Positions 39,676-62,060 of a DNA stretch of 64,000 nt are shown piece by piece. A program made the position numbers and the translations under genes. Position 1 is the first letter of the stretch. Each line of letters opens with the position of its first letter. The stretch is from a virus. Below the pieces are notes generated by a model. The model worked only from the letters and a program-made list of their open reading frames with translations, searched no databases and was not told the DNA's origin. The stretch lies in the IMG/VR virus record IMGVR_UViG_3300035670_000055, positions 51,493 through 115,492 of that record; one strand, given 5' to 3'.

Positions 39676-39915
39676 AAAACGTTCATCGTCATCTTTTAAT
39701 TTATTTGTTGAAAAGACTACTCTCAAAATAGCCGTAATTAATAAAAAAGGTAAAATAAAAGAAATTGATGCTGTTGGTGAATTGTTACAGCAACCGTCAC
39801 CATCCCAATGCCCGTTTCCTCCGTGTGCAATTGAAATTAAATGCCCTGGAGGACAATTATTTGGATGTTGTTTTGGAGGTCTTGGTATTTCTGAATTTAT
39901 AAATATATCACTCAT
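39673..39915 (-). CDS. Small membrane-anchored protein, 80 aa
   Basis: The N-terminal half is rich in Pro, Gly, His and Cys (IPRPPKQHPNNCPPGHLISIAHGGNGHWDGDGCC), followed by one transmembrane helix (ISFILPFLLITAILRVVF) and a charged end. No signal peptide. The Cys/His content suggests metal binding. First gene of the cassette-like island in the direction of transcription. Confidence 0.45.
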   Translation of the reverse strand: MSDIFINSEIPRPPKQHPNNCPPGHLISIAHGGNGHWDGDGCCNNSPTASISFILPFLLITAILRVVFSTNKLKDDDERF

Positions 39916-39943
39916 TGTTTTTAATTTTTTTATTTGTTATTAG

Positions 39944-40081
39944 TTCCTGTGACAGGATTCGAACCTGTATGTTATCTTCAACTTTTTTGTTGTCTAATAG
40001 TTTGACAATCTGATTTGTATAAGACTTGCAAATCTAATACTCATTTGATAACCATGTGTCTACCAATTCCACCACACAGGA
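39944..40081 (-). tRNA. tRNA-Leu-like gene (CAA?) with about 50 extra bases
   Basis: Acceptor TCCTGTG/CACAGGA with A73, D arm GTG-GAATTGGTAGA-CAC in the class II (Leu/Ser) style, and T arm ACAGG-TTCGAAT-CCTGT are intact. At the anticodon position the loop ATCAAAT carries CAA (Leu) with U33 and A37, but the stem TGGTT/GAGTA has a mismatch. About 68 bases lie between it and the T arm, where class II tRNAs have 11-20. The insert can form TTGTC/GACAA and CAAC/GTTG hairpins, or GTTATC/GATAAC can close everything. Total 138 nt. CCA is not encoded. Confidence 0.6.
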
Positions 40082-40086
40082 AAATA

Positions 40087-40118
40087 AAAAAGGCTGTTTA
40101 AATTAATAAACAGCTTTT
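40087..40118. terminator. Terminator hairpin
   Basis: AAAAGGCTGTTTA pairs with TAAACAGCTTTT (one bulged G) around AATTAA, between the 145-aa gene and the tRNA-like gene. It has T-runs in both directions. Confidence 0.75.
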
Positions 40119-40131
40119 ATAAATTTTAAAA

Positions 40132-40569
40132 TTATAATAATTGCTGTTTTTTATAAGCAATCATTTCTAATTTTTCTTCATACAATTCAATTTGTTTTTT
40201 TGTATGATACTTTTGAGCTTGAATTTCTTCTTCTTTTTGTTTTCTAGCTCTAATTCCTTTATTAAATTGTTCATCTAATTGAAAAACATAAGATTCTCTT
40301 AGTTCTACTGTAGCAATTTTATCTACATTAATTTCAATAAAAGCTTGTTCTTCTTGTTCTTTAATTTCTTCAAGTTTTTCTTTTGAAATTTCCAGATAAT
40401 CTTCTAGATCTCTTTTTAATTTTTCAATTTGTGCATTACATTTTCTTTCTTCATCTTTATAATATCTTTCCATACGTTTTTTCATTGAAGAAACTTTTGC
40501 TTCTTCTGTAACGTTTAAAAATGATAATACTCTTTCTACCCATGACTCTTTTTTAGCTTGTGTGCTCAT
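40132..40569 (-). CDS. Coiled-coil protein, 145 aa
   Basis: Nearly the whole protein is a charged helix with heptad spacing (residues 25-145, for example MKKRMERYYKDEERKCNAQIEKLKRDLEDYLEIS). Such proteins form rods or scaffolds. No sequence family recognised. It is the last gene before a terminator. Confidence 0.6.
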   Translation of the reverse strand: MSTQAKKESWVERVLSFLNVTEEAKVSSMKKRMERYYKDEERKCNAQIEKLKRDLEDYLEISKEKLEEIKEQEEQAFIEINVDKIATVELRESYVFQLDEQFNKGIRARKQKEEEIQAQKYHTKKQIELYEEKLEMIAYKKQQLL

Positions 40570-58020: not shown

Positions 58021-59235
58021 ATGGCTGATAATAACGAAAATATTTCTTTTAATATTGTAGATACTATGGAAATGACTGGAAATACTGAGTTAATTAATGA
58101 CTTAATGAGTCCAGAAACCACATCTACAAGTCCTGATGAAGTGCAACCTATTGTTAAAGAGGTAGAAGAAGACCCTGTACCTGCTGCTCCTAGTAAAAAA
58201 ACAAAAGAAACTGATCCTGATGCAGATAAGTCTGATGATGGTGAATCGTTGATTTCTAGTTTTCTAGAAGATAATGAAGAAGAAGAAGAGTTACCCACTC
58301 CACCAAAAGCAAAAGCACCAGAAGAAGTTTCTCAGGAAGAACCAGATTCTCCAGATGGAAATCAGTTCTCTGCTTTAGCAAATGACTTATTTAAATTAGG
58401 TGTTTTTACAAAGGATGAAGAAGAGGATGATGTTGCAATCTCCACTCCAGAGGAATTTCTAGAAAGATTCCAAACAGAAAAGAAAAAAGGGGCTAGTGAA
58501 ATTGTTGAAAATTTTATAGGACAATTTGGAGAAGATTACCAAAAAGCATTTGAAGCAATATTTGTAAAAGGAGCAGATCCTAAAGAATATTTCAGCACAT
58601 ATAATAACGTAGTTAATTTCGCAGAGATGGATTTATCTTCTACAGATAATCAAATTAAAGTGGTGAGACAAACATTGACTGACCAAGGATTTGATGAAGA
58701 AGACATTGATACAGAAGTTGAAAGACTTCAAAACTATGGAGATTTAGAAAACGTTGCTACTAAATATCATAAAGTTCTTGTAAAAAAAGAAGCTCAGAAA
58801 CTACAAAAAATAGAAGAGCAAGCAGCAGTTCAATTGCAACAAAAACAGGCAGTTAGAAATCAGTATATTAATAATGTACAAAACATTTTACAAGAAAAAT
58901 TAAAAACAAAGGAATTTGATGGTATTCCATTAAGTCCAAAAACAGCAAGTGAACTACAAGACTTCTTATTAGTAGATAAGTATAAGACAGTATCAGGAGA
59001 AACTCTTACAGATTTCGACAAGGCTATTTTGGAATTAAAGAGACCAGAAAATCATGAACAAAAAGTAAAAGTTGCATTATTACTAAAAATTCTTGAAAAA
59101 GATCCTACACTATCTACTATTCAAAAAACTGGTGTTACAAAAAAATCTAATCAGTTATTTACAGAAGTAGCTAGACAAGTTCAAAAAGATAAAAAATCTG
59201 CTGGAGGAACATCAAGTATTTTCAGTAACTTATAA
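58021..59235 (+). CDS. Acidic scaffold-like protein
   Basis: 404 residues, highly acidic in the first 110 (DNEEEEELPTPPKAKAPEEVSQEEPDSPDG), then helical with coiled coils (DLENVATKYHKVLVKKEAQKLQKIEEQAAVQLQQKQAVRNQ). The position between portal and major capsid protein and the composition fit an internal scaffolding protein. No protease is seen to remove it, so it may leave whole or stay in the head. The start has no upstream gene overlap: 142 bases with the terminator precede it. Confidence 0.65.
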   Translation: MADNNENISFNIVDTMEMTGNTELINDLMSPETTSTSPDEVQPIVKEVEEDPVPAAPSKKTKETDPDADKSDDGESLISSFLEDNEEEEELPTPPKAKAPEEVSQEEPDSPDGNQFSALANDLFKLGVFTKDEEEDDVAISTPEEFLERFQTEKKKGASEIVENFIGQFGEDYQKAFEAIFVKGADPKEYFSTYNNVVNFAEMDLSSTDNQIKVVRQTLTDQGFDEEDIDTEVERLQNYGDLENVATKYHKVLVKKEAQKLQKIEEQAAVQLQQKQAVRNQYINNVQNILQEKLKTKEFDGIPLSPKTASELQDFLLVDKYKTVSGETLTDFDKAILELKRPENHEQKVKVALLLKILEKDPTLSTIQKTGVTKKSNQLFTEVARQVQKDKKSAGGTSSIFSNL

Positions 59236-59262: not shown

Positions 59263-60816
59263 ATGGCAATCCAATCACTACCAGGCGCAACTGGTTTTAC
59301 GTATGCAAGAGTAGCTTCTATGGATAAGCGTGCTGTAGGGAAACTTACAGATGCTAATCACTTAGAATCTTTCCACTCAACAGAACCTGCTGATTATGAT
59401 AAAAAAATCATTTCATTATATACGCAGAGTTCACTATATAGTAATGACTTCCTTGATATGATCAACAAGTCAACTCCTTACTACATTGATAATAATAGTG
59501 ATTCTTGGAAATGGGACATTCAAGTTCCTTACAAGTTTCCTAAAGTGATCTATATTCCAGCTACTACACAAGAAAAAGTAAAGCCTGGTATTGACGGTCA
59601 AGAATTTCAACTAGTTTTAGATACTAATGAGTTCTCTAAGAATGCAATTGTATCTATTGGTTCTAGACAATATGGTCCTAGGTTCTATGTAATTAAAGAT
59701 CCAGTTCCTTGGAATACAGGTTACTTGTATACATTTACATTAGTAACAGATAATCCAATGATTGACTTTGTGTCTTCTCAATTCTTACAAGTAGGTCTTG
59801 AATTAGAATTAGTAGATGCTGCAATTGGTGAATTTGATCAAGATTTATTAGGTCTTCCTAGACTTGGTGAAAAAATTACAATGTTTGAATCACTTGGTTC
59901 TGGTTATGGTTTTGAACACAAAATTACTGAATGGGCTGATGACAAAATGATGAGAGATGCATCTGGAAAACCTTTGGATATTCTAGTTTATGCTCCTCAA
60001 CGTAGAAATCAACTTCCTCTAACAAGAAATGATGTTAAGTGGGAACCATTCATTGAATTCTGGATGAGAAAATCTATGCTAGAATTGAAAGTGAAAAGAA
60101 TGATTTGGTCTAAACCAGGTACAGTTAAAACTAATGGTTCTAAACAAGAACTTAAGAGAACTTCTGCTGGTATTTACCATAGAATGAGAAATAACGGCAA
60201 CTTAGTACAATATAACAGAGGAGAATTCTCTGCAAACTTACTAAGATCTGTATTTGGAGATTTATTCTATAGAAGAGTAGATGTTAAAGACAGACGAGTT
60301 AAAATGTATACTAACGAAGCTGGTTTTGATGTATTCCAACAAGCTCTTAAAAATGATGCATTAAATTCTGGTCTTACATTCATGGCAGATTCTGGAAACA
60401 GATATATGCAAGGAGAAGGTCAGCATATTACTTACAACTTTGCATTCGATTCAATGGTTACTCGTGAAACAGGTAAAATTGAATTAGTTCACTTAAAAGA
60501 ATTAGATTTACCACAATCTAACTTAGAGTTTGGTCAAAACAAAAAATCTACTCCTGTATTTATGGTGTTCGATGTGAGCCCTATGAGTGATGGTTCTATG
60601 GTAAACAATATTCGTGAGGTGAGAATGAAAGGTGCTCCTTCAATGACTTGGGGTTATATTGATGGTACAAGACACCACTTAGGTTTTGCTAAATCTCAAG
60701 GAATGTCTTCTGCTAATAAGTTCCCAGGATACGAAATCTGGATGAAAGACAGATGTGACGTGTTTATTGAAGATTTATCAAGAACAGTATTGATTGAAGA
60801 AATTCCTCAATTTTAA
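59263..60816 (+). CDS. Major capsid protein
   Basis: 517 residues with the more regular, higher-G+C codon use of a very abundant protein. FAYARVA-type start, SWKWDIQVPYKFPKVIYIP, RRNQLPLTRNDVKWEPFIEFWMRKSMLELKVKRMIWSKPG and ITYNFAFDSMVTRETGKIELVHLKELDLPQSN are patterns of crAss-like HK97-fold capsid proteins as I know them. A double hairpin and a tRNA-like element follow. It probably needs GroEL with the phage GroES-like protein for folding. Confidence 0.82.
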   Translation: MAIQSLPGATGFTYARVASMDKRAVGKLTDANHLESFHSTEPADYDKKIISLYTQSSLYSNDFLDMINKSTPYYIDNNSDSWKWDIQVPYKFPKVIYIPATTQEKVKPGIDGQEFQLVLDTNEFSKNAIVSIGSRQYGPRFYVIKDPVPWNTGYLYTFTLVTDNPMIDFVSSQFLQVGLELELVDAAIGEFDQDLLGLPRLGEKITMFESLGSGYGFEHKITEWADDKMMRDASGKPLDILVYAPQRRNQLPLTRNDVKWEPFIEFWMRKSMLELKVKRMIWSKPGTVKTNGSKQELKRTSAGIYHRMRNNGNLVQYNRGEFSANLLRSVFGDLFYRRVDVKDRRVKMYTNEAGFDVFQQALKNDALNSGLTFMADSGNRYMQGEGQHITYNFAFDSMVTRETGKIELVHLKELDLPQSNLEFGQNKKSTPVFMVFDVSPMSDGSMVNNIREVRMKGAPSMTWGYIDGTRHHLGFAKSQGMSSANKFPGYEIWMKDRCDVFIEDLSRTVLIEEIPQF

Positions 60817-60821
60817 TAAAC

Positions 60822-60856
60822 AGTGCCTCACTAGGCTTTTGCCCTAGTGGTGCACT
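60822..60856. terminator. Hairpin after major capsid gene
   Basis: AGTGC and CACTAGG pair with CCTAGTG and GCACT, a G+C-rich stem of 12 bp with small bulges. It has no long T-run, so it may be an mRNA-stabilising 3' end rather than a strict terminator. Confidence 0.6.
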
Positions 60857-60872
60857 ATAAAAATAAAAAGAA

Positions 60873-60923
60873 TGAGACTACTCCCCTCCACCCACACACA
60901 CATTAATGGGGAGTTAGTTCTCA
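60873..60923. other. Second hairpin after capsid gene
   Basis: TGAGA (60873-60877) and ACTCCCC (60880-60886) pair with GGGGAGT (60908-60914) and TCTCA (60919-60923). The ACTCCCC/GGGGAGT arms also occur in the divergent control region (50650-50712). C-rich loop. Confidence 0.5.
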
Positions 60924-60985
60924 TCAAACAAAATACATTCTATTTGCCTCTTTAAAAATGCACACTTATAGAATCTTTTTAAGTA

Positions 60986-61055
60986 AGTTTGTTCGTCTAG
61001 TGGCTAGGACCCAGACAAGTTTCTGGAAACAGGAGTTCGAATCTCCTACAAACTT
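60986..61055 (+). tRNA. tRNA-Glu-like element without a usable anticodon loop
   Basis: Acceptor AGTTTGT/ACAAACT, D arm TCGTCTAGTGGCTAGGAC in the form of Bacteroidetes tRNA-Glu, and T arm AGGAG-TTCGAAT-CTCCT are intact. The anticodon stem CCAGA/TCTGG is perfect, but base 26 is missing and the loop is six bases (CAAGTT) without U33 or a Glu anticodon. At 70 nt it is about three bases shorter than expected. CCA is not encoded. It is probably not a decoding tRNA. Confidence 0.65.
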
Positions 61056-61091
61056 CAAATTATAAACCAATTAATAATTAAACTACATATT

Positions 61092-62060
61092 ATGGGTAAG
61101 TTAGGAAAAATCTCAACTTTAAAAAAAGATTATAATAATTCTCAGTTACAAACTATGCAAGGAGGACTTGCAGCAAAAGGATTAACTAGAATCCCTGGAG
61201 CAGGAGTTTTTAAATATCCTTATAAAGAATTAGATGGAAAGTATAGAACAGGATTAGATCCTGATGCCTCTTACATTAAAAGAATTCAAGATCCTACAGA
61301 AAGAGAATTAGAAAAAGAAAGAGTTACCAAGTTGAAACAAAAACTTGAAAATGAATTAGGTGATGTTGATTTAGGACCTAGAAGTTCTTTCTGGAATTAT
61401 GGACTATCTATATCTAACGATGATAATTTACACGTACAACCTGTAAAACTTATGGATGGCGATAACATTTTTGATTTATCAAATCCTCTTCAAGAATTAC
61501 AATTTTCATGGTTAAGAGTACATCCTACAATTGCTAGTTCTTATCAAGCATGGGAAAGAGGAGATTATCCTGCAGATACACAATTTTATGTTGCTGATGA
61601 TGAAATTGAGAATGCTGTATTGTTCAAGAAAAAACAGCTAATCAATAAAGCAATCGTTAAATTTGATGGAATGTCTCCAGAGAAGAAGAAAAAAGTTGCT
61701 AGACTTTTAGGTCTTCCAGTTACAGATAATACAACTGAAGAATCTGTTTATAATCAAGTTGATAACTTACTAAAACAAACTGAGTTTAAAAACGGTAAAT
61801 TTAGTGGATTAGATCCAGTGAAAGTATTTAACCAGTTTGCTGATATGAAGGAAAATTTATTAAATATTAAAGACCTTGTTAAACAAGCACTACATCACTC
61901 TATTTATAGAATGAAACCTAATGGAAAAATTTATGAAGGAGAATTTGAAGTAGCAATGGATGAGGATGAATTAGTGAAAATGCTTGCTGATGATGATAAT
62001 CAAGACACATTATTAACATTGGAAGGTAAACTAAAAAGCAAAAAAATTGCAGCAATATAA
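61092..62060 (+). CDS. Virion structural protein (unassigned), 322 aa
   Basis: Lies in the head gene block. GAGVFKYPYKELDGKYRTGLDPDASYIKRIQDPTERELEKERVTKLKQKLENELGDVDLGPRSSFWNYG is a pattern I associate with crAss-like structural proteins; the second half includes MSPEKKKKVARLLGLPVTDNTTEESVYNQVDNLL and LKNIKDLVKQALHHSIYRMKPNGKIYEGE. Possibly a head-tail joining or capsid-associated protein. Helical, charged; no enzyme motif. Confidence 0.6.
   Translation: MGKLGKISTLKKDYNNSQLQTMQGGLAAKGLTRIPGAGVFKYPYKELDGKYRTGLDPDASYIKRIQDPTERELEKERVTKLKQKLENELGDVDLGPRSSFWNYGLSISNDDNLHVQPVKLMDGDNIFDLSNPLQELQFSWLRVHPTIASSYQAWERGDYPADTQFYVADDEIENAVLFKKKQLINKAIVKFDGMSPEKKKKVARLLGLPVTDNTTEESVYNQVDNLLKQTEFKNGKFSGLDPVKVFNQFADMKENLLNIKDLVKQALHHSIYRMKPNGKIYEGEFEVAMDEDELVKMLADDDNQDTLLTLEGKLKSKKIAAI

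Follow-up and report, generated by a model that had tools for sequence, protein, structure and literature searches.

Organization of the capsid operon

The stretch of DNA analysed here, hereafter the window (64,000 nucleotides), comes from a virus record of 115,492 bases and carries the gene of a Crassvirales major capsid protein, which is followed by two strong hairpins, a tRNA-like RNA, an A/T-rich leader and the next structural gene of the cluster (Table 1). The placement of the tRNA-like RNA after a capsid gene, which had been proposed from the DNA letters, was borne out by the PF23898 match of the upstream gene. The 322-aa gene follows the capsid gene as gene 75 does in crAss phages (PMC7886860). 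A sequence similar to that of the first hairpin occurs in the relative L002, and a search for its pattern retrieved the L002 contig only, while the second hairpin is the counterpart of a hairpin of the form GAGAAGAG..CCCCC/GGGGG..CTCTTCTC in the relatives. The A/T-rich leader (AAACCA..AACTACAT), which is also found in the relatives, starts where the tRNA-like RNA ends. Intrinsic terminators, taken as a G+C hairpin with a U tract, were not found on the + strand between positions 58900 and 63000, and promoter-like sites in the gap between the capsid gene and the next gene were no commoner than in shuffled sequences. Within the coding sequence of the capsid protein, at 60213-60236, a short hairpin (ACAGAGGAGAATTCTCTGC) resembles the P1 tip of the three-way-junction RNA described below and lies at the same place in several relatives, which is possibly a mere codon coincidence; a match of the three-way RNA model to it was rejected as a short coding hairpin.

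Table 1. Features of the capsid operon and tRNA-like elements in the window
Feature	Position	Strand	Evidence
Crassvirales major capsid protein gene, 517 aa	59263..60816	+	Pfam PF23898 Crass_capsid, E 1.5e-30; PHROG major head protein
Strong hairpin behind the capsid stop codon, lacking a U tract	60819..60858	+	fold -19.6 kcal/mol, z -4.2
Second hairpin, GAGACTACTCCCC...GGGGAGTTAGTTCTC, no U tract	60873..60926	+	fold -18.5, z -4.2
tRNA-Glu-derived cloverleaf	60986..61055	+	ARAGORN; RF00005, 40.7 bits; 0 matches in 200 shuffles
Cloverleaf: acceptor stem	60986-60992/61048-61054	+	
Cloverleaf: D arm	60995-61010	+	
Cloverleaf: anticodon stem	61011-61015/61022-61026	+	
Cloverleaf: anticodon loop, 6 nt (CAAGTT)	61016-61021	+	
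Cloverleaf: variable loop	61027-61030	+	
Cloverleaf: T arm	61031-61047	+	
Cloverleaf: discriminator	61055	+	
A/T-rich leader of the next gene	61056..61091	+	sequence; same leader in relatives
Structural gene next in the cluster (322 aa; position of gene 75 in crAss phages)	61092..62060	+	phrog_16383, E 3e-10
Second-family tRNA-like copy	39944-40081	-	

The window cloverleaf

ARAGORN called a cloverleaf with an undefined anticodon at 60986-61056 on the + strand. Among 200 dinucleotide-shuffled versions of the 64-kb window, it called no tRNA. The Rfam tRNA model RF00005 covered the element with all 71 of its positions (40.7 bits against a gathering threshold of 29; E 6e-8), a score obtained from a short stretch with lax filters, the speed filters of the default whole-window Rfam scan having missed the element. 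Its fold energy alone is unexceptional (z -1.4). Direct reading found 21 of 21 stem pairs intact, distributed over the acceptor stem AGTTTGT/ACAAACT (7/7), the D stem GTCT/GGAC (4/4, one of them G-U), the anticodon stem CCAGA/TCTGG (5/5) and the T arm AGGAG-TTCGAAT-CTCCT, so that the four stems and the canonical T loop (TTCGAAT) of the RF00005 fold are all present. The anticodon loop CAAGTT has six bases and lacks the features of a functional tRNA-Glu, namely a seven-base loop, U33 and the anticodon YUC. The presence of all tRNA parts, the perfect stem and the six-base loop without U33 and a Glu anticodon had been read in the original prediction, and direct reading agrees with it. A 3′ RCCA is not encoded, the 3′ sequence in the window being TCAA.

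The proposed likeness to tRNA-Glu holds for the D arm (TCGTCTAGTGGCTAGGAC) and for AAACAGG, which spans the variable loop and the start of the T arm; both are of the tRNA-Glu type, and the tRNA-Glu of the relative G017 (TCGTCTAATTGGCTAGGAC, AAACAGG) has the stretches TGGCTAGGAC and AAACAGG in common with them. Annotated phage tRNA-Glu genes match the element at approximately 74% over 54 nt, with weak E-values. In G017, 22 or more tRNA genes form an array close to the record end (L409, G017:117800-120724), and most relatives have none or one. A source in such an array was considered and rejected, as the best identities were 58-65% and pointed to no specific donor. The Glu form is a single sequence, on which selection is not directly measurable.

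A three-way-junction RNA in the relatives

A scan with the capsid protein yielded 80 loci at 92-94% identity, and ARAGORN called no tRNA in any of them. The gap between the capsid gene and the next gene is occupied in nearly all relatives by a conserved three-armed RNA. Its model matched in 84 of 84 relative loci and, in a second set, in 80 of 85, two of the five misses being loci that are incomplete within this slot; these counts include some loci from the same contigs. Among 21 long records, the three-way RNA is present exactly once per genome in 19 and nowhere else in those records. The other two are the records of the window and of G017, both of which have a tRNA-like cloverleaf in the slot. 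The model matched neither the gap of the window nor any other part of its record, and the window element does not form the P1/P2/P3 junction with a UUCRNU loop that defines the class. The stretch 60940-60980 (ATTCTAT/ATAGAAT) was rejected as a remnant of the three-way RNA, having no model match and a fold z of -0.6. No Rfam family matched in the six three-way RNA loci tested, the RNA was not found in the more distant phages Lbo-JY46, Fpv1 and crAss001, and a search of the literature for tRNA-like structures in crAss phages gave no report of the slot between the capsid gene and the next gene. Open reading frames resembling HNH homing endonucleases, assigned by sequence motif only, are inserted beside the capsid gap in L054, L192 (2264-2764), L058, L079 and L149; the three-way RNA is retained downstream of the insert in L054.

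The fold is supported by covariation. In a model built from 30 copies, 18 of 22 pairs are changed on both sides; none of 500 shuffles was as good, and slid controls collapse. With 84 distinct rows, in an alignment that had been fitted to the model, none of 500 shuffles reached the observed percentage of paired positions, doubly changed cells or covariation score, and the count of doubly changed pairs was reached by 23 of 500. The stems contain 132 G-U against 30 A-C cells (about four to one), an excess that places the RNA on the capsid-coding strand. The divergent relatives L296 and L481 show the same junction fold with altered sequence, and L210 folds to the junction only in a longer stretch and has a different P3 loop.

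P1 comprises 7-8 bp, and in the main group its tip, ACAGA/TCTGC, hardly varies. The long P2 has a variable loop and a bulged G that is almost always kept. P3 (4-6 bp) carries in nearly all copies a T-loop-like loop, UUCRNU, which reads UUCGAU in 63, UUCGGU in 22 and UUCAAU in 19 of 129 distinct copies. This loop has 6 nt, its fifth base is often not A, and in about a quarter of the copies it is a non-canonical T loop. P3 adjoins P1 as the T arm adjoins the acceptor stem in tRNA. The distance from the P3 loop to the end of P1, a kind of ruler, is 12 or 13 nt in 129 of 129 distinct copies, while the middle of the RNA varies from 16 to 31 nt; the same distance in tRNA is 12. The RNA has the acceptor-T minihelix of about 12 bp expected of RNase P and RNase Z substrates. 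The copies begin with a C-G or A-U pair, have no D arm and do not encode a 3′ RCCA, their 3′ sequences being CAAA, CTAA or CGAA. The strong hairpin of the relatives ends a median of 6 nt upstream of the three-way RNA, and the next ATG follows its 3′ end after a median of 29 nt. The window cloverleaf lies in the same slot before the same leader, with a ruler of 5+7 = 12 nt and 36 nt to the ATG; its upstream hairpin lies at about 60 nt instead of 6.

True tRNAs and cloverleafs in the slot

In about 30 loci (L165-L191, except L167, L171, L180 and L186, and L153, L155-L157 and L159-L161), the next element 3′ of the three-way RNA, immediately adjoining it, is an intact tRNA-Met (CAU). These tRNA-Met genes have several unlike sequences, and the genome often has no other normal tRNA. 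The slot of G017 (L192) contains a tRNA-Met-like cloverleaf with two mismatched acceptor pairs. Two pattern scans of IMG/VR returned at the slot only tRNA-Met forms together with L167 and L192, the remaining matches being unrelated. According to the original prediction, a normal tRNA-Glu at this place in relatives, beside a copy in the window with drift in all arms, would have spoken against its reading; the two scans found no normal tRNA-Glu in the slot of relatives, and every arm of the window copy is intact. In the capsid tree, the window is placed on a separate, fairly long branch, so that replacement of the three-way RNA and an ancestral state are indistinguishable. The three-way RNA may have arisen from a tRNA by loss of the D arm.

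A second tRNA-like family

The same genomes contain a second tRNA-like RNA, in which an unrelated, hypervariable insert replaces the anticodon side and the total length is 68-185 nt. The family comprises 19 distinct elements (L378-L387, L388-L408); 17 of 60 records have it, some genomes with two copies. Their 7-bp acceptors, of several different sequences, are perfect or contain G-U pairs; most copies have a Leu-like D arm, and the T arm is ACAGG-TTCGAAT-CCTGT, the constancy of which is due in part to its use as the search pattern (one mismatch allowed). Inserts that are 94% identical are found under different acceptor stems in L394 and L406, suggesting that modules may be exchanged. A hairpin resembling a terminator (AAAGCTGTTTATTAATTTAAACAGCCTTTTTT) ends immediately before the Leu-like RNA of the window (39880-40140), and the insert of this RNA has no complementarity to other parts of the window beyond 11-nt chance matches. 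The second family shows that tRNA elbows without anticodons are kept at another place too.

A possible role in capsid mRNA punctuation

The occurrence of different tRNA-shaped RNAs at the same place suggests that tRNA shape itself may be used there. The common denominator of all slot occupants is the acceptor/T-arm half of tRNA, whereas the decoding half varies freely, and it is the acceptor/T-arm half that bacterial RNase P measures. We consider the slot RNA to be an anticodon-independent tRNA mimic, for which the most likely mechanism would be tRNA punctuation by host RNase P and RNase Z; we give this reading about an even chance of being correct. The gap between the capsid gene and the next gene would then be, in an aquatic clade of Crassvirales, a slot reserved for RNAs that resemble a tRNA in outer shape, that is, a 7-8 bp acceptor-like stem beside a T-arm-like hairpin, with sequence and anticodon side mattering little. 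In most members the slot would be filled by the compact three-way-junction RNA, and in the window lineage, where that RNA is absent, by a tRNA-Glu-derived cloverleaf freed from decoding. Cleavage of the 5′ border by host RNase P would leave a capsid mRNA that ends a few bases past a protective hairpin in the relatives and approximately 60 nt past it in the window, and cleavage of the 3′ border by RNase Z (or exonucleases) would give the next cistron a short, unstructured, A/T-rich leader. What is observed is the structure with its covariation, its location, spacing and single copy, and a cloverleaf in its place in two lineages; mimicry of tRNA in three dimensions, cleavage, the enzymes and an effect on capsid expression are inferences.

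Several observations bear on this reading. The gap has no U-tract terminator on the + strand and no excess of promoter-like sites, which counts for punctuation, and crAss001, in which the corresponding gap holds a hairpin followed by a U tract, suggests that a capsid mRNA 3′ end may be needed by either route. Bacterial RNase P favours a 3′ RCCA, and the relaxed P3 loop together with the missing CCA argues against a simple RNase P substrate. The lack of a D arm in the three-way form, its C-G or A-U start pairs, the acceptor mismatches of L192 and the distance of the window hairpin also speak against punctuation. Bacterial RNase P is reported to cut non-tRNA RNAs, phage RNAs and polycistronic mRNA, and some tRNA precursors of phage T4 also lack an encoded 3′ RCCA (PMC11143913). 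The suggestion in the original prediction that the element is a cleavage signal between the capsid mRNA and the next cistron is favoured by the comparison, since the slot of the relatives always contains a tRNA-shaped RNA, usually lacking an anticodon arm like that of tRNA, with the fixed ruler and fixed spacing; the cut itself is putative.

An uncut structural element, the in-place fold of which blocks exonucleases or sets translation of the next gene independently of RNase P and RNase Z, would account for the constant coupling of the RNA to a strong hairpin (median 6 nt upstream) and to a start codon (about 29 nt downstream), as well as for the relaxed T loop and the missing CCA. This explanation is rather unlikely in view of the cloverleafs of tRNA origin that occupy the slot in two lineages and of the fixed 12-13 nt ruler, which points to recognition of tRNA shape. 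The window copy might also be merely a decaying tRNA-Glu from another phage or a host, its position matching by coincidence. Genes for tRNA do land in this gap (tRNA-Met, about 30 loci), and the Glu form is known from one copy, the anticodon loop of which is one base short; yet all 21 stem pairs are intact beside a completely changed loop, and the three-way RNA of 19 of 21 genomes is missing exactly in the window and G017, both of which have a cloverleaf. Decay alone fits these facts worse and is unlikely, in agreement with the earlier view that a perfect stem does not result from random decay.

The existence of a second anticodon-less family elsewhere in the same genomes, inexplicable by processing of the capsid mRNA, would fit stable trans-acting small RNAs that bind tRNA-handling proteins (EF-Tu, a synthetase, the ribosome, modifying enzymes or tRNA-cutting defence enzymes) rather than cis signals. 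The fixed capsid-operon position and spacing in the relatives argue for a cis role, and we regard a trans-acting RNA as improbable. The original prediction had also offered a decoy for tRNA-cutting defences; such a decoy for anticodon nucleases, or an anti-defence bait with its cut site removed, would explain the scrambled anticodon loop of the window. Most relatives have no anticodon-type loop that could be cut, their P2 loops are variable, and no evidence ties a defence system to the slot, so that this idea is hardly tenable.

A broader form of the punctuation reading is that interchangeable tRNA-shaped modules, from cloverleafs to a three-way RNA without a D arm, serve as enzyme-recognized punctuation of the capsid operon, and that the second set of scaffolds with hypervariable inserts marks anticodon-free mimics as a general tool of this phage group; we propose it tentatively, as a possibility with less in its favour than against it. 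The three-way RNA is a covariation-supported, so far undescribed structured RNA that occupies a constant position in the capsid operon across a widespread clade of aquatic crAss-like phages. If punctuation is true, a DNA phage would have made the host tRNA-maturation enzymes a device for setting capsid mRNA ends, and the natural exchanges between cloverleaf and minimal three-way RNA would show which part of tRNA those enzymes need.

Comparison with known systems

We assign the slot RNA to none of the systems compared here. The window element is like Rfam RF00005 tRNA, and tRNA-Glu in particular, in its score and in all four arms, but without an anticodon and U33 and with a 6-nt loop it cannot decode. 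The packaging RNA of phi29 is also a three-way junction; identity with it was rejected because of the wrong location and the absence of evidence. The tRNA-like 3′ ends of plant RNA viruses likewise imitate tRNA shape in a viral RNA without decoding, but they are located at the termini of RNA-virus genomes and are often pseudoknotted, whereas the phage RNA is at an internal operon junction of a DNA phage. In crAss001, the same gap contains an intrinsic-terminator-like hairpin with a U tract and no tRNA-like RNA, and the 3′ end of the capsid mRNA probably has to be set there as well. In the precursor of C4 antisense RNA of phages P1 and P7 and in polycistronic mRNAs, recognition by RNase P is similarly driven by an acceptor/T-arm look (PMC11143913); C4 differs in being an antisense regulator, in having no conserved capsid-operon slot and in not alternating with true cloverleafs. 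The closest system in working is that of mascRNA and menRNA, non-decoding tRNA-like RNAs that end another transcript (the 3′ ends of the human noncoding RNAs MALAT1 and MEN-beta), in which the acceptor and T arm are kept, the D arm is reduced, the anticodon arm is altered, and the upstream RNA is ended by an RNase P cut (PMC11693755). These are eukaryotic nuclear RNAs with a four-arm fold, a D loop and proven cleavage, whereas the slot RNA belongs to a phage operon, is mostly a three-way junction and is a putative cleavage substrate.
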